NCBI GenBank assembly: GCA_027351005.1
Contig: DAIEJF010000226.1
Span: 1 to 53,108, forward strand
Length of the DNA: 53,108 nucleotides
DNA from: Paracoccaceae bacterium
GTDB taxonomy: Bacteria > Pseudomonadota > Alphaproteobacteria > Rhodobacterales > Rhodobacteraceae
Direction of reading: 5' to 3'
Below are positions 22,137 through 35,502 of the stretch, in pieces. The notes under the pieces are model-generated. The model was not told where the DNA came from, did no database searches, and was given only the letters and a program-made list of their open reading frames with translations. Every line of letters begins with the position of its first letter. Positions within the stretch are counted from its first letter, which is position 1. The translations under genes were made by a program, and so were the position numbers.

Positions 22137-22628
22137 TCAGATGTACAGATTGATGTCGCTGCGGGTCGCCACGTCGACCCAGGAGGCCGCGCCGCCGAGC
22201 ACCGGCCCGTCGATCATGTCCTCTTTCTTGTATTCGAAGAGATCCATGGTCATCTGGCAGGCGATCATCTTCACGTCCGCTTCCAGCGCCAGATCGCGCA
22301 GTTCCTCGATCGAGGCCACGCCCTTCTTCTTGATCATGTTCTTCATCATGTTGGTGGTCAGAGCGGTGGCGCCGGGCATGGCGGCAAGGATGTTCGGCAT
22401 CCCCATGTGCATGCCCATCATCGGCATTTCCATCGCCGCGTTGCCCAGCGGGTTGATCTTCAGGTTCAGGTCCTTCTTCAGCAGGGCAAGCCCGTAGAAG
22501 GTAAAGAACATGGTGGTGTCGATGCCCATCGCGGCCGCCGTGGTGGCCAGGATGAACGGCGGGTAGGCCCAGTCGAGCGTCCCCTTGGTGACGATGATCG
22601 TCATTGACTTGGCGTTGTCTTCGCTCAT
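22137..22628 (-). CDS. DsrE/F-like family protein (DsrE3-type)
   Basis: TIIVTKGTLDWAYPPFILATTAAAMGIDTTMFFTFYG; conserved Cys in MIACQMTMDLF; no TM segments. Confidence 0.83.
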   Translation of the reverse strand: MSEDNAKSMTIIVTKGTLDWAYPPFILATTAAAMGIDTTMFFTFYGLALLKKDLNLKINPLGNAAMEMPMMGMHMGMPNILAAMPGATALTTNMMKNMIKKKGVASIEELRDLALEADVKMIACQMTMDLFEYKKEDMIDGPVLGGAASWVDVATRSDINLYI

Positions 22629-22732: not shown

Positions 22733-23173
22733 TCAGGCGGCGCAGCCGGCGAAATTGTCGGCCGCCATCTTCGCTTCATAGGGGCCTGCCACCTCGGCGC
22801 CGCTGGTCAGCGCGGCGGCGGCCGCGGCATCTGCGGGCTTCACCTTCACCATCCAGCCCGCGCCATAGGGTTCCGAGTTTGCGAGCTTGGGGTTCGAGGT
22901 CAGGTCGTCGTTCACCGCCACGATCTCGGCATCGAACAGGATCTTGGCGGGGCCGACCCATTTGCCGCTTTCGACCGTGGCCACCGACTTGCCCGCGCCG
23001 ATCGTCTTGCCCGCCTTCTTGGCCGTGAAGGCGACCAGTTGGCCGGCCATGCCGGTCGCGATCATCGTCATGCCGACGGTATAGGTGCCATCGCCCTCGG
23101 GCCGGTACCACAGGTTGTTGTCGACATCGTAGAGCAGGTCGTCGGGAAGGTTGCAGCCACGGACCACGGGCAT
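22733..23173 (-). CDS. lbpA: Lipoate-binding protein LbpA (GcvH-like)
   Basis: GMTMIATGMAGQLVAFTAKKAGKTIGAGKSVATVESGKWVGP (lipoyl-Lys context). Confidence 0.9.
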   Translation of the reverse strand: MPVVRGCNLPDDLLYDVDNNLWYRPEGDGTYTVGMTMIATGMAGQLVAFTAKKAGKTIGAGKSVATVESGKWVGPAKILFDAEIVAVNDDLTSNPKLANSEPYGAGWMVKVKPADAAAAAALTSGAEVAGPYEAKMAADNFAGCAA

Positions 23174-23188
23174 TTGATGGCTTCCTCT

Positions 23189-23659
23189 TCAGGCTTGGGG
23201 GGTGGATGGGGTCTGTTCAGCGATGCGGATCGGGCGAGAGGAGCAGCAGAACTCTCCCAGCCCGTCGGATTCGAGCTTGCCGCCGACAAACAGCGCCAGA
23301 TGCCGCACGACCATTGCGCCAAGGCGGATGTTGCGTGCGGTGTCCGGCCCTGTCGGGTCAAGGCGGATCAGATTGTGGTGCCACACCGCCTCGCGGCAGG
23401 TCTCGCGGCAGGCGTTGAAGCTGGGGTTGCCGCGCGCGGCCTGCCGATGCAGCGCCAGCAGGCGGAACCCTTCCACCGTCCCGGTGGTCGGGGTCTGCCC
23501 CTTGGCGGCAAGCCAGGCCAGCAGCACATCCTCGCCCATCGCCAGCAACTCGTCGGCCAGCGCGGGGGCGCGGGGGGCAAGGTCGGCCTCCGCGGCGGTC
23601 AGGATCTGGTCTGTCCGGTCCTCGATCTCATCGATCGACCGGCGGTGCCGTTCGGTCAT
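23189..23659 (-). CDS. Protein of unknown function in sHdr operon (156 aa)
   Basis: ATGA overlap with hdrB2; CRETCREAVWHHN and EFCCSS motifs. Confidence 0.75.
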   Translation of the reverse strand: MTERHRRSIDEIEDRTDQILTAAEADLAPRAPALADELLAMGEDVLLAWLAAKGQTPTTGTVEGFRLLALHRQAARGNPSFNACRETCREAVWHHNLIRLDPTGPDTARNIRLGAMVVRHLALFVGGKLESDGLGEFCCSSRPIRIAEQTPSTPQA

Positions 23660-24582
23660 GCGAGCCCCTTTTCTTTCAACAGCGGGCGGGCATCCGAAAA
23701 GTTTTCCTGCACCGCCACGCGGTTCGGCGACAGGCCGAGCGCCATGCCCAGAAGCTGCGTGAAGTAGAGAATCTTCACGTTCGTCTTTCTACCAAGAACC
23801 TTCTCGGCACGGATTTGATGCATCTCAAGTCCGGTGTGGCAGGTCGGGCATTCGGTGGCGATCACATCGGCCCCGCAGGCCTCGGCCGTGGTCAGGATGT
23901 TCAGCACGAGCTTGGTGGACGTGTCGCTGTCCGACAGCGAATGCGCCCCGCCGCAGCAGGCGGTTTTCAGCGGGAAGTCCACGTTCTGCGCCCCCGCCGC
24001 GGCCAGGATGTCATCCATGAAATGCGGTTTCGCGGTCGACTCGCTGCCCGGCCCCTTGTCCTTTTCGGGGAAGATGTGGCGCGGGCGCGTGTACATGCAG
24101 CCGTAGTAGTTGGCGACCTTGATCCCGTTCAGCGAGTTCTTCACCCGGCGGCGGATTTCGTCTTCGCCCACCGCCTTCTTGATCCAGTCGAGCGCGTGGA
24201 TGGTTTCCACCTTGCCCGGCTCGTAGGTCTTGTGGCCCGCCTTCTTCGACAGCCGGTCGTTCACCTCGACCGACGCGTCGTCGTGGCTCAGGTCGTATTC
24301 GGCTTTCTTGAGGTTGTGATAGCAACCGTTGCAGGGTGCCATCACGGTGTCGAAGCCCATCTCCTCGGTGATCGAGAGATTGCGGGCCGACAGATAGGTC
24401 TGGATCTTCGGGTCGATGTTCTTCACTTCCATCGCGCCGCAGCAGTTCCAGTTCTCGATCTCGACCAGATCGAGGCCCAGTTCCTTGCCGACCGCCTTGG
24501 TCGAGGCGTTGTAGGCGTGGCCCGACCCTTCCAGGGCGCAGCCCGGATAGTAGGCGACCTTCTTGTAATCCCCGTCTGCCAT
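23656..24582 (-). CDS. hdrB2: sHdrB2, heterodisulfide reductase subunit B-like
   Basis: YYPGCALEGSGHAYNASTKAVGKELGLDLVEIENWNCCGA and ANYYGCMYTRP...TACCGGAHSLSD CCG domains. Confidence 0.92.
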   Translation of the reverse strand: MADGDYKKVAYYPGCALEGSGHAYNASTKAVGKELGLDLVEIENWNCCGAMEVKNIDPKIQTYLSARNLSITEEMGFDTVMAPCNGCYHNLKKAEYDLSHDDASVEVNDRLSKKAGHKTYEPGKVETIHALDWIKKAVGEDEIRRRVKNSLNGIKVANYYGCMYTRPRHIFPEKDKGPGSESTAKPHFMDDILAAAGAQNVDFPLKTACCGGAHSLSDSDTSTKLVLNILTTAEACGADVIATECPTCHTGLEMHQIRAEKVLGRKTNVKILYFTQLLGMALGLSPNRVAVQENFSDARPLLKEKGLA

Positions 24583-25328
24583 CACTCTGCCCCCTTCGCG
24601 TCGAGCCCCAGCGCCTTGCGGTTGGTGGCTTCCACCTCGTGCACGTATTCGTTGATCGCGGCGCGGGCCCGGCCCCAGCCCCGCGTCTTCGGGCGGAACA
24701 CCGTGCTCAGCCCCAGCCGGATCAGGTAAAAGACCGGGAAGCGCCGGATCAGCCCCAGAACCATGGTCTCTAGCCAGGGCTGGCGCAGCGGCTGGCCGGT
24801 GTCCTGCAGGAAGTTGCGCAGCACCAGCCCGTCTTCGATCTTGCCGCGCTGGAACACCTGCGCCGAAAACCCTTCGTCGAAGATCGTCGAGGGCGACTTC
24901 GGCGTATGCCCCTTCAGTTCCAGCCAATGCGCGGTGGCCTTCATCACGCCTTCGGGGGCAACGTCGCGCGGGCAGGCGTAGGTGCATTTGTTGCAGGACA
25001 CGCATTGCCAGATGATGTCCTTGTCGCGCAGCAGCTCGTCCTCCATCCCCAGCCGGATCAGGTAGATCCAGTAGCGGGGATTGAATTCGGGATTGATCGC
25101 GTTGACCGTGCAGGCGTTCGTGCAACTGCCGCATTGCCAGCAGCGGTGGATGTTCTCGCCCCCCGGCAGGGCCGCGATCTCTTCCTGAAGGTTCTCGTTG
25201 TAATCGGTGATCGACCGGCCCTCGATGAAGGTGGACCAGTGGCCCGACACATCCATCCCGTCGATCACAAGGTGATCGTGCGTCACCAGATTTTCCGGAC
25301 GGATCAGGGATTTTTCGTGGATGGGCAT
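24582..25328 (-). CDS. hdrC2: sHdrC2, heterodisulfide reductase subunit C-like
   Basis: Two ferredoxin clusters CWQCGSCTNACTV and CVSCNKCTYACP. Confidence 0.92.
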   Translation of the reverse strand: MPIHEKSLIRPENLVTHDHLVIDGMDVSGHWSTFIEGRSITDYNENLQEEIAALPGGENIHRCWQCGSCTNACTVNAINPEFNPRYWIYLIRLGMEDELLRDKDIIWQCVSCNKCTYACPRDVAPEGVMKATAHWLELKGHTPKSPSTIFDEGFSAQVFQRGKIEDGLVLRNFLQDTGQPLRQPWLETMVLGLIRRFPVFYLIRLGLSTVFRPKTRGWGRARAAINEYVHEVEATNRKALGLDAKGAE

Positions 25329-26212
25329 GGCGATGCCTCCTGCTGCGTGATCGCCGGGAGCGTTCCCAGCACATGCGCCGATCCATCGATCAGCTTCAGC
25401 CGCGTGCGGCCGGTTTCGGTATCCACCGCATCCAGCCCCAGCATCCGCCGGGTATGGGCCATCGGATCGCCCGCGCTGGAGAATTCCGAGCGCAGGTATT
25501 GCCCGCCCCGGTCGTTGATGTAGCCCGCGTAGATGTGCGCCAGCAGCAGGTCGGAGTAGAACGGCAGGTCGCGGAACACGCCTTCGCCCTTCAGGAACCC
25601 GTCCAGCTCGTCGCGCAGCGTTGCGAAGGCGGTGAAATCATCGGCCACGGTGATCTTCACCGCGTCCACGTCATCGGCGAACCAGATCTCGCGCAGCACG
25701 CCCGTGCCGACGCGGGCATCCCAGATCCAGCGGGTCATCAGCGGGTAGCGGGCGGGGGCGGTGAAATGCAGCGCCTCGGCGGCAAGGTCGCGGACCCAGC
25801 GATGCGCCTTGTCGCGCGGGAAGGACGCGCAGAAGGCGGCCATCCGGGCATCGGCCGTGGCCGGATCGTCGGCCCCGTCCAGCAGACCGGACAGCCGCCC
25901 CTGCATTTCCCAGAATGCGTTATCGGCCAGCCAGCCCCCGATGCGGCGGCGCACCGGCGTGATGAAGGCCGCCAGGTCAAGAAACTCGGGCTCGGTCAGC
26001 TGTTCCAGCCTGCCCTTGCTCAGCAATTCGTCGAACAACGAGGCCTTCAGTGCCAGCGCGGTGACATAGCGTTCCACCCCGCCGGTGGGTTCGGCCGCTT
26101 CGACCAGATGCGCGAAGGCGCGCCGCAGCCGCGGCCCCGACAGATCCAGCACCGGCCGTTGCGGGGCCGGGGCAGGCGCGGGGACAGGCTTTGGCGCGCG
26201 GCCGAACAGCAT
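25304..26212 (-). CDS. Conserved protein between hdrA and hdrC2 (Hyp of hdrC1B1A-hyp-hdrC2B2)
   Basis: ATG overlaps hdrA stop; about 302 aa; position as in known sHdr clusters. Confidence 0.8.
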   Translation of the reverse strand: MLFGRAPKPVPAPAPAPQRPVLDLSGPRLRRAFAHLVEAAEPTGGVERYVTALALKASLFDELLSKGRLEQLTEPEFLDLAAFITPVRRRIGGWLADNAFWEMQGRLSGLLDGADDPATADARMAAFCASFPRDKAHRWVRDLAAEALHFTAPARYPLMTRWIWDARVGTGVLREIWFADDVDAVKITVADDFTAFATLRDELDGFLKGEGVFRDLPFYSDLLLAHIYAGYINDRGGQYLRSEFSSAGDPMAHTRRMLGLDAVDTETGRTRLKLIDGSAHVLGTLPAITQQEASPCPSTKNP

Positions 26213-27264
26213 CACTCGGCCGCCGCCCGCACGGCCATGCCGGCAAAGTTCATCGCGGCCATGGCGGCGGCGTGACCCTGCGCGATGGAATCGTCGATCG
26301 TCTCGGGGCCAGAGGCGGCGCCGCAGGTGAACACGCCGGGCCGCGAGGTTTCGGCCAGATGCGCGTAGGTCGTCTGCTTGCCGATATAGCCCCAGCGGTT
26401 CAGATCGACCCCGAAGACGGCGCTGATCGTCATGTTGTCGACGTTCGGGTCCATGCCGACCGCATGCACCACCATGTCGAACGGGATCGAGATCGGGCGC
26501 TTGACCAGAGTGTCTTCGCCCTTCACCAGCAGGCGGTTGCCGTTCGAGGTGACCTCGGCGATCCGCGCCTTGACGTACTTGACCTTGAAGTTTTCCTGGC
26601 TGCCCCAGTAGTACTCGCCCTCGTAAAGGCCGAAGGTGCGGATATCCATGTAGTAGATGTAGACGTTGGTCTTCGGCGACATCTCGCGGATTTCCATCGC
26701 CAGATTGGCGGATACCGTGCAGCAGATCTTGGAGCACCACTCGCGGCCGATCTGGCGGTCGCGCGAGCCCGCGCAGAGCAGGATCGCCACACGGTCGGGC
26801 ACCCGGCCATCGGACGGGCAGCGCACGCCCTTGCCCGACGAGATCATCTGTTCGACCATCGTCGTCGTCACCACGTCGGGATAGGTGCCAAAGCCCCATC
26901 CCGGCTTGTTGATCGGGTCGAAGTGGGTAAAGCCCGTGGCAAGGATCGCGGTTTCCGCCTCGACCGTGCTGCCGTCCTTCAGCGTCGCGACAAAGTTGCC
27001 CGGCGTACCCGTGAAGGCCTGCACGGTGCTGTTCACCTTCACCTCGACCGACGGGTTCGACACCACACGGTTCACCATGCCGCCGATGGCATCCTTTGCC
27101 CATTCGTGGCTTGGCACCAGCTTCGCATAGCCCGACAGGATCGGCGCGCCGCCAAGGATCGCCTCCTTTTCGACCAGCACGGCCTTGCGACCGGCCGAGG
27201 CGAGGGCATGGGCTGCGGACAGGCCGGCCGGCCCCCCGCCGATGATGAGGACAGGCTTCGTCAC
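26212..27264 (-). CDS. hdrA: sHdrA, FAD-containing heterodisulfide reductase subunit A-like
   Basis: KPVLIIGGGPAGLSAAHALASAG; WCSKICC; GTG start overlapping hdrB1 stop. Confidence 0.92.
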   Translation of the reverse strand: MTKPVLIIGGGPAGLSAAHALASAGRKAVLVEKEAILGGAPILSGYAKLVPSHEWAKDAIGGMVNRVVSNPSVEVKVNSTVQAFTGTPGNFVATLKDGSTVEAETAILATGFTHFDPINKPGWGFGTYPDVVTTTMVEQMISSGKGVRCPSDGRVPDRVAILLCAGSRDRQIGREWCSKICCTVSANLAMEIREMSPKTNVYIYYMDIRTFGLYEGEYYWGSQENFKVKYVKARIAEVTSNGNRLLVKGEDTLVKRPISIPFDMVVHAVGMDPNVDNMTISAVFGVDLNRWGYIGKQTTYAHLAETSRPGVFTCGAASGPETIDDSIAQGHAAAMAAMNFAGMAVRAAAE

Positions 27265-28634
27265 TTCTCCGCTCCTGCAAGGGCTTTGGGTTTCACATAG
27301 CCGGGGCCCGAGGTGATGGCGCGCTTGGGATCGTAGAGCGTCTCGATCCGCCCGGCCTTCACCTCGTCGAGGTAGGCTTCGAACTCGGCTTTCTTCTGCT
27401 CCCAGTCGATGCCCATCTTCTCGAGAAGCTTCTCGAATGGAGAGGCATGCCAGTGCAGTTGCGCCAGCTTGTAGGGATGCGCGCCGCAGACCAGGGCTGC
27501 GAACTGGCAATCGGCCATCACGGGAAGCTCGTAGACCTTGTCCACCGCGCGCCCGATCCACTGGTTCTTGTCCAGCGTGGTGATGCAGCCGGTATCGTGG
27601 CCCACCATCACGTCCGACCGTGCTTCTTCCACCGCCACCTTGATCTTGCGGTCGATCGCGAAGGAGCGGGTGAATTCCCGCTCGCCGATGATGTGGCGGA
27701 AGCCGAAGCCGCAGCAGTCATACCAGGTGGAATAGTCGATCACCTGCGTGCCCAGCGTCTGCAGAAGGCCGGTGGTGACAGCGACGCGGTTGCCGTCCAT
27801 CACCGTGTCGTCATAGATCACGTCGTCCGGCACCATCTTGTAGACGTGGCAGGCCGGATGGACCGTGGTGCGGATGTGGGAGACGTCGATCTCCTGATAA
27901 TTCCGGATCCGGTGGCGCATCACATGCAGCCATTCGGAATAATGCACGATCTCTTCCGGGATCAGCAGCTTGCCGTCGATCAGCCGCCCCAGCTTGCCGA
28001 GGATCTTCTTCACCTCGTCGCGCAGCTCGGCCGAATGCATCAGGAAATGCCGCATTTCCTTGTAGTTGCCGAAGGACGTGCCGCAGTGGATCAGCGGGTA
28101 ATAGGTGCCTTCCGGCAGGCCCTGCGCCTTGGCGCTGACATAGGCCTGATGGAAGTTGCGCAGGAACACGGCGGCAAGGCTGACCACGTTGCCGATGCCC
28201 GAGCCGTGGTAGTTCCATGCGGTGCAGGATGTCTGGTCCGTCTCGTCCAGATACGTCAGCTCCATCTTGTTCATGAGCCACAGGATCGAGGACGGATAGC
28301 CCGGAATGTTGCCGCACTGGCCGCAGGACTTGTGGTGCCAGAGGTTCGTCGTGGGGATCTTCTTGTCCCAGCCGTAAAGCGTCTTGGCCATGATCGGCTC
28401 GTTATGATCGCCGACCCGGTGGACGAGGATCTCGCCATCCTTTTCCAGTTGCCACATCGCGTCGCGGATATCCTCGCGCCGCTCCTTGCCCATCAGGAGT
28501 GCCCGCTTGTCGATCTTGGCTTCTACCCAGTCGGTCGCCCGCCGGGCGTCCGCCGCGCTTAGGTTCGAGGGCTGCCAGTCAGCCCCGAAGCCGGAAAAAG
28601 CCCCGGCCTTGCCTTCGTTCGTTCCGTTCGCCAT
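27261..28634 (-). CDS. hdrB1: sHdrB1, heterodisulfide reductase subunit B-like
   Basis: HKSCGQCGNIPGYP, YDCCGFGFRHIIGEREFTRSF, HDTGCITTLDKNQ. Confidence 0.9.
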   Translation of the reverse strand: MANGTNEGKAGAFSGFGADWQPSNLSAADARRATDWVEAKIDKRALLMGKERREDIRDAMWQLEKDGEILVHRVGDHNEPIMAKTLYGWDKKIPTTNLWHHKSCGQCGNIPGYPSSILWLMNKMELTYLDETDQTSCTAWNYHGSGIGNVVSLAAVFLRNFHQAYVSAKAQGLPEGTYYPLIHCGTSFGNYKEMRHFLMHSAELRDEVKKILGKLGRLIDGKLLIPEEIVHYSEWLHVMRHRIRNYQEIDVSHIRTTVHPACHVYKMVPDDVIYDDTVMDGNRVAVTTGLLQTLGTQVIDYSTWYDCCGFGFRHIIGEREFTRSFAIDRKIKVAVEEARSDVMVGHDTGCITTLDKNQWIGRAVDKVYELPVMADCQFAALVCGAHPYKLAQLHWHASPFEKLLEKMGIDWEQKKAEFEAYLDEVKAGRIETLYDPKRAITSGPGYVKPKALAGAEK

Positions 28635-28674: not shown

Positions 28675-29433
28675 CTATTCGTCGTCGTCCTCGTCGTCGT
28701 CCTGCTCTTCGAGGAACTCGTCCCACTCCTCGCGCTTCTCATCCATCACGTCGGACACCACGTCGAAGAGGTTCTCATCGACCGTTTCCAACTGGTCGAG
28801 CACGCCTGTCGCCTCCCAGATCGTGTAAAGCTCGACCGAGGTCTTGAGGTTCACGATCCAGGCCGTGTCCAGCGTGTGCATGGTGGGCATGGGGATTGCC
28901 TTGCGCAGGATCATCAGCGGCGCATCCACCTTGGCGACGTTCGGGCCCCAGTCGGGGAAGGCCTCCTTGGTGATCATGTTCGGCGCAAGCTGGTTGCCGG
29001 TGGACACCAGCTTCAGCAGGACGCGGCTGAACGGGCGCAGAACGTCCTTGGCGGATTCCAGCCCGTGCTTGATCGCGACTTCGCGCATGATCATCACAAG
29101 GCCACCGGGCGAGTTCTCGAACGGGCAGCGCGCGGCGCAGGTGTAGCACTGGGCGCAGGCCCAGATCTTTTCCTGCATGGCGTCGTAGATGCCTTCCAGG
29201 TTCTCGGTCCACAGCAACTGCACGATCTCGCGCGGGCTGTAATCGTAGTAGTGGGCCGAGGGGCAGGTGGCGGTGCAGATCCCGCAGTTCAGGCAGCCGT
29301 GGATCTCGCTCGTGTAGACCGCATGGCTGCGGATGTCCTCGAAGATTTCCTCAAGCTTCTCGTAGGCCACCACCGGCTTTTCCGACACCGGGTCGGAAAT
29401 CGGCGGGTTCGGCATCTGGATGTGAGCGTTCAT
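28675..29433 (-). CDS. hdrC1: sHdrC1, heterodisulfide reductase subunit C-like, with polyacidic tail
   Basis: CLNCGICTATCP and CAQCYTCAARCP; C-terminus EEQDDDEDDDE. Confidence 0.92.
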   Translation of the reverse strand: MNAHIQMPNPPISDPVSEKPVVAYEKLEEIFEDIRSHAVYTSEIHGCLNCGICTATCPSAHYYDYSPREIVQLLWTENLEGIYDAMQEKIWACAQCYTCAARCPFENSPGGLVMIMREVAIKHGLESAKDVLRPFSRVLLKLVSTGNQLAPNMITKEAFPDWGPNVAKVDAPLMILRKAIPMPTMHTLDTAWIVNLKTSVELYTIWEATGVLDQLETVDENLFDVVSDVMDEKREEWDEFLEEQDDDEDDDE

Positions 29434-29467: not shown

Positions 29468-29848
29468 TCAGTAGGTCAGCACCTTCGCGTCGTCGTTTTC
29501 CATGATCTCCTCGATCACCTTGGCGCCGCCCACGATGCCCTCGCATTCGGGGATCAGGTCGTCGGCGGTCATGTCGAAGAGGTCGAGGTTGGGCGAGCAG
29601 CAGTAGAACTTGGCCCCCGCCTCATGCGCGTCCTTGATGAAGTCATAGACCGTCTTGGGGCTGCCGGGCTTGACCACCAGCTTTTCGGCGACGCCCTTCT
29701 TCATCAACTGTCCCGCGGTGGCGGTGCAGATCACGTCCACCTCGTAGTCCATCGCGGCCGCGACCGTGGCCTGAAAGAACGGGGCGCCCAGTTCCTCGCC
29801 GTTACGGGGGTCGGTGTTGACCATCACGATGATGAGTTTGCTCGCCAC
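29468..29848 (-). CDS. DsrE family sulfur-relay protein
   Basis: KLIIVMVNTDPRNGEELGAPFFQATVAAAM...KFYCCSPNLDLFDM; GTG start preceded by GGAGGAG (annotated ORF extends to 29911). Confidence 0.83.
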   Translation of the reverse strand: MASKLIIVMVNTDPRNGEELGAPFFQATVAAAMDYEVDVICTATAGQLMKKGVAEKLVVKPGSPKTVYDFIKDAHEAGAKFYCCSPNLDLFDMTADDLIPECEGIVGGAKVIEEIMENDDAKVLTY

Positions 29849-29890
29849 GTCGTTCTCCTCCGGCGCGACGACCTGTGCGGCTGTCGCATG

Positions 29891-29908
29891 ACTGTTTTCG
29901 AATATTTG
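29891..29908 (-). promoter_or_regulatory. Shared motif copy 1 (candidate operator upstream of dsrE)
   Basis: Minus strand CAAATATTCGAAAACAGT; matches 31781-31799 apart from one substitution and one 1-nt indel. Confidence 0.4.
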
Positions 29909-29961
29909 CATAGACTAGAACATATGTCGAGAATGGAATATGCAATCCCGACGCTGTTCGC

Positions 29962-30651
29962 TCACATCCAGCCGGTGCGCCGCGACAGCCCGACCATCAG
30001 CCCTGTCAGGGCTTCTGCGATCTCGACCTGGGCCTGACCGAGCAGGTGCAGCGACGCCGCGCAATCGTCCGGCGTTTCGGCAAATTCCATCACAAGGTCT
30101 TCCATCATGCCCCGTTTTGCCCCGGGATGACCCACGAAACCCAGGCTTTGCGCGCCGATCCCGAAGATCGCCGGGGTGCCGTTTGCTGCGGTTGCAAAGA
30201 CCCCGGCCCCGGGCGGAAGCACCGGCGCATCGCGCAGGTAGGCCGCCATCGGCAGGCTTTCGGGCAAGAGACCGCTGGCCACTCCGGCCGCGGTGTCGCT
30301 GGCGCGTGTCACTTCGAATCGCAACGGCGCCGCATCCGCGCCCCCCCCCGCCGCGGTGGCGAGAATCACCGCGCCAAGCTCCAGCCCCACTACGGGCAGG
30401 CCTGCCGCCAGAAAGGCACGGGTCAGCCGCAACTCGTGCCCGAGAGAGGGCAGGATATGCCCGCTGACCAACCCATAGGGCCCGCCCCCCAGCAGCATCA
30501 GCCCGGCATAGCCATCGGGGCTGTCGGGCAGGGTGCCGCCATGGGTGAAGGGGCGCTTGTAGGCATAGCGGATGCCGCGCCCGTCAAGGTGATCCTCGAT
30601 CAGGCCCAGATACTCGGCCTCGGTGTGCTGGATCACGCAGATGGTCTTCAT
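29962..30651 (-). CDS. Class I glutamine amidotransferase-like protein, catalytically degenerate
   Basis: MKTICVIQHTEAEYLGLIEDHL...LGGGPYGL...LPVVGLELGAVILA (nucleophile Cys replaced by Glu)...FVGHPGAK. Confidence 0.8.
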   Translation of the reverse strand: MKTICVIQHTEAEYLGLIEDHLDGRGIRYAYKRPFTHGGTLPDSPDGYAGLMLLGGGPYGLVSGHILPSLGHELRLTRAFLAAGLPVVGLELGAVILATAAGGGADAAPLRFEVTRASDTAAGVASGLLPESLPMAAYLRDAPVLPPGAGVFATAANGTPAIFGIGAQSLGFVGHPGAKRGMMEDLVMEFAETPDDCAASLHLLGQAQVEIAEALTGLMVGLSRRTGWM

Positions 30652-30661
30652 CGGTCCTCCG

Positions 30662-31732
30662 TCAGTCGGCCACGGCGGCCAGGATGGCGGCGGCAAGCTC
30701 TACGGGCGGAACCCCCGGCATCTCGATCGTGCCCTGGGCCATCGCCGCGGATACGGCTGCGGCCAGCGCGCCGGGTTCCAGTGCCACGCCGCGCAGGGCG
30801 GCGGAGATGCGGTCGATCCCGTCGGGCGGCAGGCAGGTGAAGTCGCCACCCAGCACCAGATCGCGCACCCGCCCGTCCTGCGCCAGCAGCGTCACCCGAA
30901 CCAACCCGCCCGGGGCCTTGCGGGCGGCTTCGGTCAGGGTCGTGTCGGCGGACACCTTGACCCCCAGCGCCACCAGCTTGCGGGCCTGCACCTCGGTCCA
31001 GTCCGGGTCGGCCAGCCGGGTTTCGGCATGGGCGATCGCGGCCTCTTCGGCGGCGGTCGGGCGGTCGTGTTCCGGCGTCACGCCCAGAACCTCGGCGCAA
31101 TGGTGCAGGAAGCGCGCCAGCAGCGCGGCCCGTGCGGGCGGCGCGGGCAGTTCCTTGGCCAGCGTGGTCATGTAATCGTCCAGCGTCTGGCGCAGTTTGT
31201 CGCGGAACTTCTCGCTGGGCACCTTCAGGCATTTCGCCATGGTCGCGGTGTCGAAGTCGAACATGAAGCTGCCGACCATCACCGTCGCCTCGCCGATGCT
31301 GGCGGCGCCCGTGCCGCCGATCTTGCGCCCGTTCACCTGGATGTCGTTCACCGGCCGATAGACGGCGTTCACCCCGAAATCGCGATAGGTGCGCACCACC
31401 GGCTCGATGAAGCGGGGGTAGAGGTTCACCGCGAATTCGGGCGCCTTGCGGCGCGGATAGATGAAATGGGTGAAAAGCTGCCCGCCATCGAGGTAGACCG
31501 CCCCGCCACCGACCTGGCGGCGGATGATTGGCAGCCCGTGTTCGGCGCAATAGGCGCGGTCGACCTCTTGCGCGATGTCCTGGTGCAGCCCGACGCAGAC
31601 ATAGGGCTTGGCGGGCGACACGAGCAAGAGAACCGGATCGCTGTCGGGGCCGATGCAGGCGGCAAGGCCGTGATAGACGGCCTGACTGCGCAGCGCCGGA
31701 ACCGTGCCGAAATCGATCACCCTCAGCCGCAT
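30662..31732 (-). CDS. Lipoate-protein ligase (LplA-like) of the sHdr-LbpA system
   Basis: IIRRQVGGGAVYLDGGQLFTHFIYP, NDIQVNGRKIGGTGAASIGEATVMVGSFMFDFD. Confidence 0.88.
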   Translation of the reverse strand: MRLRVIDFGTVPALRSQAVYHGLAACIGPDSDPVLLLVSPAKPYVCVGLHQDIAQEVDRAYCAEHGLPIIRRQVGGGAVYLDGGQLFTHFIYPRRKAPEFAVNLYPRFIEPVVRTYRDFGVNAVYRPVNDIQVNGRKIGGTGAASIGEATVMVGSFMFDFDTATMAKCLKVPSEKFRDKLRQTLDDYMTTLAKELPAPPARAALLARFLHHCAEVLGVTPEHDRPTAAEEAAIAHAETRLADPDWTEVQARKLVALGVKVSADTTLTEAARKAPGGLVRVTLLAQDGRVRDLVLGGDFTCLPPDGIDRISAALRGVALEPGALAAAVSAAMAQGTIEMPGVPPVELAAAILAAVAD

Positions 31733-31810: not shown

Positions 31811-34054
31811 TCAGGCGGCGAAGGTGACCGCCTTGTTCAGCGGCAGGGTCCGGATGCGCTGGCCGGTCAGCGCAAAGATCGCGTTGGCCAGCGCAGGCGC
31901 CGCGGGTGGCGTGCCGGGTTCGCCGACCCCGGTCGGATGCCCGCCCGAGGCAAGGATGCGGGTGTCGAACACCGGCATCTGCGACATTCGCAGCGCGTCG
32001 TAATCGTAGAAGTTCTGCTGCTGCACCGCGCCATCGGCAAAGGTGATCTCGCCCATCATCGCCGCCGACAGGCCGTAGATGGCGCCAGACACCATCTGCG
32101 CCTCGATGTTGCGCGGATCGAGCGCCAGCCCCACGTCCTGCGCGATCCACATCCGTTCCAGCCGGATGCCCTGCGGGCCCTGGCTGATCTCGATCACCTC
32201 GGCGGTGGGGGTGCCGAAGGACCAGCAGAAGGCCATGCCACGGGCGCGCCCGGCGGGCGGCGGGCTGGACCAGCCCGACATCTCGGCCACCGCCTGTACC
32301 ACGGCCGCCGCGCGCGGGCTTTCGCCCCGCATCAGCGTCAACCGCATCGCGACGGGGTCGAGGCCCGCGGCATGCGCAAGTTCATCAAGGAAGCATTCCA
32401 GAAAGAAGGCGTTGTGCGAATTGCCGACCGACCGCCACGACCCTACCGGCACCGCGACATCCGACACATGGCCCGTCACCCGCTGGTTCGGGATGCCATA
32501 GGGCTGGTCGAACAGCCCTTCGACCAGGATCTTGTCGGGCCCGGGCGGCGCGAAACCCAGGATGCGCCGGGCCTGATTGGCCAGGACCGAAGGCGCGGCC
32601 ACCGCGGCCGTCAGCGCCACCGGCCCGTCGGCGGTCGCCAGCCCTTGCATCCGGGCGATGGCGGCGGGGCGGTAGAAGTCATGCGTCATGTCTTCTTCCC
32701 GCCGCCAGGTCAGCAGCACGGGCGTGCCCGCCAGTGCCTTGGCCAGCTTCGCGGCCTGTACGGCATAGTCGAATTCGGCCCGCCGCCCGAATCCGCCCCC
32801 CAGGAAGGTGGTGTGCACCGTCACCTTGTCGGCAGGAAGGCCCACGGCTGCGGCGCATTTGTCACGGATCACCGTGGGCGCCTGGTTCGGCGCCCAGACC
32901 GTCAGGACGCCATCCGCCAGATGCGCGGCAGCATTCATCGGCTCCATCGTCGCATGGGCCAGGTAGGGCACGCGGTATTCGGCGCTGAGCGGCGTGGCGC
33001 CCGCCAGCGCCCGCTCCACGTCGCCATCGTCGCGCAGGGTCGAATTGGGGGCCCGGTCAAAGGCTGACGCGATCGCGGCCATGATCGCGTCGGTCGTCGC
33101 GGGGTAGGGGGCGGGGCCCCAGGTCACCTGCACGGTTTCCAGCGCCTTGAAGGCAGCCCAGGTGTTGGTGGCAACGACCGCCACCGCATCACCCAGATCC
33201 ACCACCGCCTTCACCCCGGGCATCGTGCGCGCGGCGGCGGCGTCGAAGCCCCGCATCGCCCCGCCAGGCGCCGGATTGGCCCGGACCGAGGCGAAAAGCA
33301 TCCCCGGCAGCCGGACATCGATGCCGAAGGTGGCGGTGCCGGTGACCTTGGCCACCATGTCAAGCCGGGGCAGCGGCTTGCCCAGCAGCCGCCAGGCCTT
33401 CGGATCCTTCAGTACCGGATCGGCCGGGGGCGCGATCTGCACGGCCTCGGCCGCCAGCGCGCCATAGGGGATGCGGGTGCCGTCGGGCGCGACCACGGCG
33501 CCCTTTTCGGTCGCCAGCGCCATGGGGTTCTGCTTCAGCCGCCGGGCGGCCGCCTGCACCAGCACCGCCCGCGCCGCCGCCCCCGCCTGCCGCATCCGCA
33601 TCCAGGCATCGACCGTCGATGTCGATCCGCCGGTCGCCTCGGTTCCCATGAGGTGGCCCATCACGTCCATCGCCCCCTCGGCCAGCCGCTTCATCCGGCT
33701 GTCGCGATAGTCGATGAAGGGCAGCCCAGCCGCCGCCACGGCAAGGTTGGCATAGGTGGCCGAGGCGGGCCCGTGTTCGGCACGCACCTGCGACCAGTCC
33801 AGATCCATTTCTTCCGCCACCAGCGCGGCAAGCGTGGTCTGGATGCCCTGGCCCATCTCGGCCCGCGGGGTGATCACGGTCACCCCGTCGGCGCGCAGGA
33901 TGACCCAGGGGTTGAAGACCGTCTCGCCCGCGCCGGGCACCAGCGGGTTGGCGGGGTCCTGCACATATCGGTAAAAGCCGAACGCCACCCCGCCTGCGAC
34001 GGCGGCAGAGGCAACCAGCAAGCCGCGGCGGGTGATCGTGCCAAGGCGGCTCAT
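31811..34054 (-). CDS. Molybdopterin-binding hydroxylase large subunit (IorB-like, xanthine oxidase family)
   Basis: Twin-arginine-like ITRRGLLVASAAVAGG; PRAEMGQGIQTTLAALVAEEM; LGGGFGRRAEFDY; SVGNSHNAFFLECFLDELA. Confidence 0.88.
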   Translation of the reverse strand: MSRLGTITRRGLLVASAAVAGGVAFGFYRYVQDPANPLVPGAGETVFNPWVILRADGVTVITPRAEMGQGIQTTLAALVAEEMDLDWSQVRAEHGPASATYANLAVAAAGLPFIDYRDSRMKRLAEGAMDVMGHLMGTEATGGSTSTVDAWMRMRQAGAAARAVLVQAAARRLKQNPMALATEKGAVVAPDGTRIPYGALAAEAVQIAPPADPVLKDPKAWRLLGKPLPRLDMVAKVTGTATFGIDVRLPGMLFASVRANPAPGGAMRGFDAAAARTMPGVKAVVDLGDAVAVVATNTWAAFKALETVQVTWGPAPYPATTDAIMAAIASAFDRAPNSTLRDDGDVERALAGATPLSAEYRVPYLAHATMEPMNAAAHLADGVLTVWAPNQAPTVIRDKCAAAVGLPADKVTVHTTFLGGGFGRRAEFDYAVQAAKLAKALAGTPVLLTWRREEDMTHDFYRPAAIARMQGLATADGPVALTAAVAAPSVLANQARRILGFAPPGPDKILVEGLFDQPYGIPNQRVTGHVSDVAVPVGSWRSVGNSHNAFFLECFLDELAHAAGLDPVAMRLTLMRGESPRAAAVVQAVAEMSGWSSPPPAGRARGMAFCWSFGTPTAEVIEISQGPQGIRLERMWIAQDVGLALDPRNIEAQMVSGAIYGLSAAMMGEITFADGAVQQQNFYDYDALRMSQMPVFDTRILASGGHPTGVGEPGTPPAAPALANAIFALTGQRIRTLPLNKAVTFAA

Positions 34055-34055
34055 G

Positions 34056-34517
34056 TCACGCTCCCTGCAGGCGGCGGGCGGCGTCGTGGATCGCGGCGCG
34101 GATCCGGGGATAGGTGCCGCAGCGGCAAAGGTTCCCGCTCATCGCCGCATCGATGTCCGCGTCGGTGGGGCGCGAGGTCGCCTGCAGCAGGCTGACCGCC
34201 GACATGATCTGCCCCGACTGGCAATAGCCGCACTGCGCCACCTGATTGTCGATCCAGGCCTGCTGGATGACCGACAGGGTGGCGGGGCTGCCGATGCCCT
34301 CGATCGTTGTCACCTCTGCCCCGTCCAGATCGCCGATCGGTAGGGAACAGGAACGCATCGTCTGCCCGTTCACATGAACGGTACAGGCGCCGCACTGGCC
34401 AACGCCGCAGCCGTATTTCGTGCCGGTCAGCCCGATCACGTCGCGCAGCACCCAAAGCAGCGGGGTGTCGGGGTCTGCGGTGATCTGGTGCGGGGTGCCG
34501 TTCACGATCAGCTGCAT
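34056..34517 (-). CDS. [2Fe-2S]-binding small subunit (IorA-like)
   Basis: [29 protein letters not shown]...[12 protein letters not shown]. Confidence 0.92.
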
Positions 34518-34553
34518 TGTGGCTCCTCGCTCCTTTCCGATTGCGGCAGATAT

Positions 34554-34578
34554 GGTTGCATTGCCGCGGGGTGCAACC
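34554..34578. promoter_or_regulatory. Inverted repeat in iorA/kynA divergent promoter region
   Basis: GGTTGCA-N11-TGCAACC. Confidence 0.45.
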
Positions 34579-34662
34579 GTCTTGCACGGGATTGCGCGGC
34601 TGACGTTGCGGCGCTACCCCGTTAGCCGCAGGCGCCTGCGACAGGCGCAACGGGAGAGACCG

Positions 34663-35502
34663 ATGACCACCAGCCCCTACGATCCGGCGCGCGAGGGTGC
34701 GCAGATGGCGTTCGATGGCCGCATGTCCTACGGCGATTACCTGAAGCTGGACGCGATCCTGACCGCGCAGGCCCCGCTGTCGGATGCGCATGACGAGTTG
34801 CTGTTCATCGTGCAGCACCAGACATCAGAGCTGTGGATGCGGCTGGCGATCCATGAGCTGAACTCGGCCCGCACCGCGATGGCGGGGGGCGATTTCGCGC
34901 ATGCGTTCAAGACGCTGGCGCGGGTGGCGCGGATCTTCGAGCAACTGAACGGCGCCTGGGACGTGCTCAGGACGATGACACCCGCGGATTACACCCGCTT
35001 CCGGGACGCGCTGGGGCAATCCTCGGGGTTCCAGTCCTGGCAATACCGGCTGATCGAATTCATGGTGGGCAACCGCAACCATGCGATGATCCGCCCCCAT
35101 GCGCACCGCCCCGACATTCTGGCGCTGCTCGAGGCCGAACTGAAGCGTCCCTCGCTCTACGACGTGGCGCTGCGGGCGCTGCATGACGCGGGGCTGACCC
35201 TGCCCGCCGAAGTGCTGAACCGCGACACCGCGCAGGCCTGGCAGCCGAACGATGCGGTGAAGGCTGCCTGGGCGGCCGTCTACCGCGCGCCGGAAACCTA
35301 CTGGTCGCTCTACGATCTGGCCGAGAAGCTGGTGGATTTCGAAGATTATTTCCGCCGCTGGCGGTTCAACCACGTCACCACGGTGGAACGTGTCATCGGC
35401 TTCAAGCGCGGCACCGGCGGCACCGGCGGCGTCAGCTATCTGCGCCGGATGCTGGAGGTCGAGCTGTTCCCCGAACTCTGGCATGTGCGGACCGATCTCT
35501 GA
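34663..35502 (+). CDS. kynA: Tryptophan 2,3-dioxygenase
   Basis: [64 protein letters not shown]. Confidence 0.95.

Follow-up and report, generated by a model that had tools for sequence, protein, structure and literature searches.

Loss of the glutaminase catalytic residues throughout LipX, an amidotransferase-like protein encoded beside the sHdr genes

The gene lipX lies in a sulfur-oxidation island on a 53,108-nucleotide stretch of DNA from a Paracoccaceae bacterium (contig DAIEJF010000226.1, GenBank assembly GCA_027351005.1; this whole stretch is hereafter the window). Its product is predicted to fold as a class I glutamine amidotransferase (GATase) and has lost the nucleophile cysteine and the triad glutamate, as have all of its orthologues that were recovered. 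We consider it probable that LipX is a pseudo-GATase that serves cytoplasmic sulfur oxidation as a ligand- or partner-binding accessory. Related genes have been noted before. Cao et al. (2018) have shown a 'GATase1' in hdr-lbpA clusters (PMC6067878). Tanabe et al. (2023) have described lipX of Hyphomicrobium denitrificans as a putative glutamine amidotransferase gene overlapping slpl(AB) (PMC10332631), and lipX has been listed among the genes for LbpA cofactor assembly (PMC11582611). LipX has thus carried the annotation of a glutamine amidotransferase and has been treated as one of the lipoate-assembling enzymes of the sHdr pathway. Should it be a pseudoenzyme, there would be no amide-nitrogen step to seek at LipX, and the sHdr pathway would have an unrecognised non-catalytic component that is present in all sampled sHdr genomes. 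No experiment on lipX itself in lipoate assembly was found in the literature, and the open-access literature yielded neither a report of the missing catalytic residues nor a paper on LipX beside sox genes without LbpA and LipS1. The gene is therefore already known; what appears to be new is its catalytic death across the family, together with its occurrence beside sox in genomes where no lipoate genes were detected.

The sHdr island of the window

The genes of the island and the catalytic positions of LipX are as follows.

22137..22628, minus strand: DsrE family (DrsE_2) sulfurtransferase (Pfam PF13686, 1.3e-50)
22733..23173, minus strand: LbpA, GcvH-like lipoate-binding protein (Pfam PF01597)
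23189..23659, minus strand: conserved protein in the sHdrI position, no Pfam match; conserved in alphaproteobacterial loci
23656..24585, minus strand: sHdrB2-like protein, conserved in sHdr loci
24582..25328, minus strand: sHdrC2-like 4Fe-4S protein
25304..26221, minus strand: conserved protein between HdrA and HdrC2 (sHdrH position), no Pfam match; conserved in alphaproteobacterial sHdr loci
26212..27453, minus strand: sHdrA-like flavoprotein, true start inside the given open frame
27261..28631, minus strand: sHdrB1-like CCG-domain protein, marker of the sHdr system
28675..29433, minus strand: sHdrC1-like 4Fe-4S protein (Pfam)
29468..29911, minus strand: DsrE-like sulfurtransferase in the dsrE3C position, directly downstream of lipX (Pfam PF13686/PF02635)
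29962..30651, minus strand: lipX, whose 229-aa product resembles class I glutamine amidotransferases but is catalytically dead; the name follows from orthology with H. denitrificans lipX and from gene position (PMC10332631)
30121..30129, minus strand: lipX codons 175-177, His-Pro-Gly, triad His kept and triad Glu replaced by Gly (alignment)
30379..30381, minus strand: lipX codon 91, which reads GAG (Glu) where active relatives have the nucleophile Cys (codon reading and predicted structure)
30472..30492, minus strand: lipX codons 54-60, LGGGPYG, oxyanion-hole loop with one residue more than the canonical GGP (alignment)
30662..31732, minus strand: lipoate-protein ligase of a second type, 28-33% identical to the lip-operon ligase; the adjacent upstream gene, separated from lipX by 10 bp, with a GGAGG ribosome-binding site

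The order ligase, lipX, dsrE3C, shdrC1B1A-hyp-C2B2-hyp-lbpA is present in the window and is the same in relatives, and the genes and their Pfam matches bear out the placement of lipX in an sHdr/lipoate island by a preliminary description of this DNA. As in the sHdr-lbpA cluster of H. denitrificans, lipX stands between a lipoate ligase gene and dsrE3C-shdr, and the window protein is orthologous to the sHdr-linked GATase-like proteins, with which it forms one clade (support 100/99). The window genome also has a complete lipS1-lipT-lipS2-slpl set on another contig (C71; L117:1938-6498) and hence two lipoate-ligase systems, this set and the second ligase type beside lipX. The latter arrangement is conserved in six Paracoccaceae loci, and the orientation is divergent in one genome (G575). 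Upstream of the island are a molybdopterin-binding oxidoreductase large subunit with a small-subunit-like open reading frame (31811-34517) and a reading frame that by eye resembles tryptophan 2,3-dioxygenase (34420-35499).

Fold and catalytic site of LipX

Translation of 29962-30651 (minus strand) gives a protein with the N-terminus MKTICVIQHTEAEYLG, the nucleophile elbow PVVGLELGAVILA (PVVGLELGAV) and the distal motif GFVGHPGAKR. The preliminary description had read Glu (GAG) in place of the elbow Cys and a GHPGAK motif in which His is kept and Glu lost. Both readings hold in the translation, and the first is confirmed by codon 91, by the structural model and by the nearest PDB sequence, 9xfs, in which the Cys of GICLGAQ is aligned with Glu91 of LipX. 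The AlphaFold model, computed from 44 aligned sequences, has a mean pLDDT of 93.3 and a pTM of 0.92, and places Glu91 at the strand-turn-helix nucleophile elbow between a strand (E87-90) and a helix (H92-100). The best Foldseek match to the model is DnfC of Alcaligenes (8khs; TM 0.85, probability 1.00), which has been reported as glutamine-hydrolysing (PMC11440038). Other matches include 3m3p, TM1158 and gamma-glutamyl peptidase 1, and by sequence the closest proteins of known structure are class I GATases. By model and Foldseek comparison LipX thus has the class I GATase fold, and DnfC and the PRK07053/TM1158-type GATases are its nearest structures and family models. A Pfam search of the window protein returned no GATase match, and the NCBIfam GATase models match only weakly, the best being PRK07053 with 57 bits against a cut-off of 250. 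LipX therefore lacks what marks a functional glutaminase, namely the elbow Cys, the His-x-Glu motif and a score above the curated family cut-off, and shows what marks a pseudoenzyme, in that the catalytic residues are gone while the GATase fold and selection are retained.

Missing catalytic residues in the LipX family

Genome searches recovered 24 LipX sequences, comprising 23 core sequences and one distant member from genome G678. All score at least 121 bits (core at least 325) and the next proteins at most 95. The nucleophile Cys is absent from every one of the 24; Gly takes its place in 15 and Glu in nine, among them the window protein and that of G678. None of the 24 has the triad Glu either, its position being occupied by Gly in the core and by Gln in G678. 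The oxyanion loop is altered in 23/23 core sequences, which read LGGGP instead of GGP and so have one residue extra, and a W-H-x-D segment has become [YF]-x-R-D in the core (R-G in one). The triad His is kept in 23 of the 24 and is Asn in L028. In contrast, Cys-bearing GATase relatives keep both the Cys and the HxE motif; the Cys is present in all 20 canonical relatives in the same alignment. No Cys is conserved elsewhere in the 24 aligned LipX sequences, and a different Cys acting as the nucleophile has been ruled out on this ground. None of the homologues linked to sHdr has an intact triad. Judged from these alignments, the residues of a working glutaminase appear to be missing from the whole family, in agreement with what had been proposed for the window protein.

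The preliminary description had also raised the replacement of Cys by Glu as a possible conserved trait of homologues from sHdr loci. The loss of Cys is common to all of them, but the residue that takes its place is not, and since Gly is commoner than Glu, Cys-to-Glu has been rejected as a rule. From the sequences, the rule of the family is that Cys is lost. Gly at position 91 also occurs in two orthologues from the window's own taxonomic family, and the position switches between Gly and Glu even between the near relatives L010 and L011. LipX forms a single clade (100/99) in a tree built without column 91, and four state changes at this position are enough on the LipX tree. A codon path from Cys (TGY) to Gly (GGN) to Glu (GAR) is feasible by single-base steps. 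Glu91 is probably derived from Gly within the Paracoccaceae; we infer this direction, as the deepest sequence (G678) carries Glu on a long branch. If so, no special Glu chemistry is implied. Sequencing error as the source of Glu91 was ruled out by the same Glu in independent assemblies of relatives (L002-L006). A Cys-bearing partner GATase in the LipX loci was also considered; in the family f1 genomes with LipX the canonical relatives sit on other contigs, with no sign of pairing.

The distant LipX-like protein (30% identity; contig C73, L081:9373-10077, minus strand) has Glu at the nucleophile position and HPQ at the distal motif, and its gene adjoins a HemL-like gene. G678 is a non-alphaproteobacterial sHdr genome in which the LipX-like gene is unlinked to the shdr cluster.

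Co-occurrence and gene order with sHdr and sox

In a class sample of 385 Alphaproteobacteria, LipX was found in 12 genomes, among them each of the 10 that have sHdrB1. In a phylum sample of 399 genomes the two were found in an identical set of seven, in G678 on different contigs. LipX is thus present in 16/16 sHdr genomes of two unbiased samples, the window genome (G000) being counted in both. The hypergeometric probability is 4e-18 for the class and 3e-15 for the phylum, values that ignore kinship and shared draws. Of 21 alphaproteobacterial sHdr loci, 20 have lipX immediately upstream of dsrE-shdr, and in the remaining one (G298) a single gene stands between. A ligase gene lies directly upstream of lipX on the same strand in only 13 of the 21. 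Seven of these ligase genes close a lipS1-(lipT)-lipS2-slpl operon, and the other six encode the second ligase type found in the window. Three sHdr loci have a divergent lip operon, which in the remainder is distant or not found. The intervening gene of G298 encodes a 725-aa protein (L074:9831-12005) that weakly matches TsoB, a rhodanese/DsbD-fusion-like family. No plasmid relatives of LipX or LipS1 were found. On Acidithiobacillus ferrooxidans plasmids there is an isolated sHdrB1 homologue (67% identity) whose surroundings include GcvH-like and hemerythrin genes but no shdr cluster (NZ_CP082239.1, 16764-18104; L121:11992-13332).

Two genomes of one genus in the f148 lineage (G581 and G489) have lipX in a different setting, where it adjoins soxB, soxY, soxX and a TsuA-like transporter gene (L076:3442-16000; L077), with an ArsR-like regulator gene and, about 5 kb away, a DsrE gene also nearby. 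Searches of these genomes, which are 94 and 98% complete, did not find sHdrB1 or LipS1, and the search for LbpA gave a sole match at GcvH level (31-32% identity). Gene identities rest on tblastn or profile matches, as the frames of the simple gene caller are wrong in places. The two proteins are nested inside LipX next to that of G298 (97/76), in which lipX lies between sox and shdr genes. They stand on a long branch (1.04), and given this branch their function may have changed. The survival of lipX beside sox without detected LbpA or LipS1 suggests a role in sulfur handling itself.

Role of LipX

The reading that we favour is a history in which an active class I GATase of the PRK07053/DnfC type would have lost its nucleophile, its triad acid and the geometry of its oxyanion loop while the fold and the pocket stayed. 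The resulting non-catalytic protein would dock on, or hold a ligand for, the sulfur-transfer and oxidation machinery (DsrE3C, LbpA, sHdr), and in this way may assemble or regulate that machinery, as inactive GATase domains do elsewhere. The N-terminal glutaminase-like domain of CPS1 has been described as inactive (PMC9445089) and the vGATs of gammaherpesviruses as pseudoenzymes (PMC8092204), both kept for structural or partner roles. These are like LipX in kind but not in family, and act in unrelated pathways; moreover, in CPS1 the inactive domain is part of one chain with the synthetase, and LipX is a free-standing bacterial protein. We infer a binding or scaffolding role, with sHdr/DsrE rather than the lipoate ligase alone as the client. 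A more specific form, which we regard as a long shot, is that LipX binds a gamma-glutamyl thiol (e.g., glutathione persulfide) or another sulfane-sulfur carrier, uncut, in the ancestral gamma-glutamyl pocket, and presents or senses it for DsrE3C, LbpA or Sox-linked sulfur transfer. The presence of gamma-glutamyl peptidase 1 among the closest folds, and of LipX in all sampled sHdr genomes and also beside sox and TsuA-like genes, can be cited for it.

The placement of lipX in the literature, less the enzyme activity, would make LipX a subunit or chaperone that takes part in lipoate assembly without catalysis, binding sLpl(AB), LipS1/S2 or LbpA and aiding lipoate loading. The ligase directly upstream on the same strand in 13/21 sHdr loci (the end of a lip operon in seven), the 10-bp spacing in the window, the slpl(AB)/lipX overlap in H. 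denitrificans (PMC10332631) and the listing of lipX with the cofactor-assembly genes (PMC11582611) all fit such a role. However, the linkage of LipX to dsrE-shdr is more faithful than that to the ligase, the lip operon of the window genome is on another contig and the adjacent ligase is of the second type, and the Thioalkalivibrio genes lipS1-slpl-lipT-lipS2 have been shown to modify LbpA in Escherichia coli without lipX (PMC10332631). LipX is also kept in G581 and G489, where neither LbpA nor LipS1 was found, and its position beside sox without detected sHdrB1, LbpA and LipS1 makes a purely lipoate-assembly role doubtful. We therefore regard this role as rather unlikely, though a serious competitor. 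We rate an accessory of sulfur transfer or oxidation above a lipoate-only role on two grounds, namely the tighter association of LipX with dsrE-shdr than with the ligase and its persistence beside sox; likewise, the two sox-linked genomes without detected sHdr favour wider sulfur oxidation over lipoate assembly.

It is improbable that LipX has remained an enzyme, whether by use of another nucleophile or through some other acyl or sulfur chemistry at the changed site. The pocket is the most conserved part of LipX and the His is kept in 23/24, which would fit such activity. The pocket columns (54-60, 89-95, 138-141, 173-177) have a mean entropy of 0.60 bits against 1.44 elsewhere, and 1/213 circular shifts of the column set was equally conserved. 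On the alignment, the former catalytic pocket is thus the best-conserved part of the protein, although its old use appears impossible; this conservation could be purely structural. Against retained activity, position 91 is Gly or Glu even between close relatives, no Cys is conserved, the triad acid is gone in all members and the His is Asn in one, so that no single chemistry suits every member. Given the free variation at position 91 and the lack of a common nucleophile, residual activity is rated low, and the suggestion in the preliminary description of repurposed acyl or sulfur chemistry finds no support.

A functionless LipX, either decaying or a lone degenerate copy, would fit the loss of catalytic residues by itself, but this reading is refuted for the family by the orthologues, which form one old clade with open frames in 24 genomes and a fixed gene order, and by pairwise dN/dS values of 0.14-0.26 in the Paracoccaceae (window compared with three relatives) and 0.07 between the two sox-linked copies.
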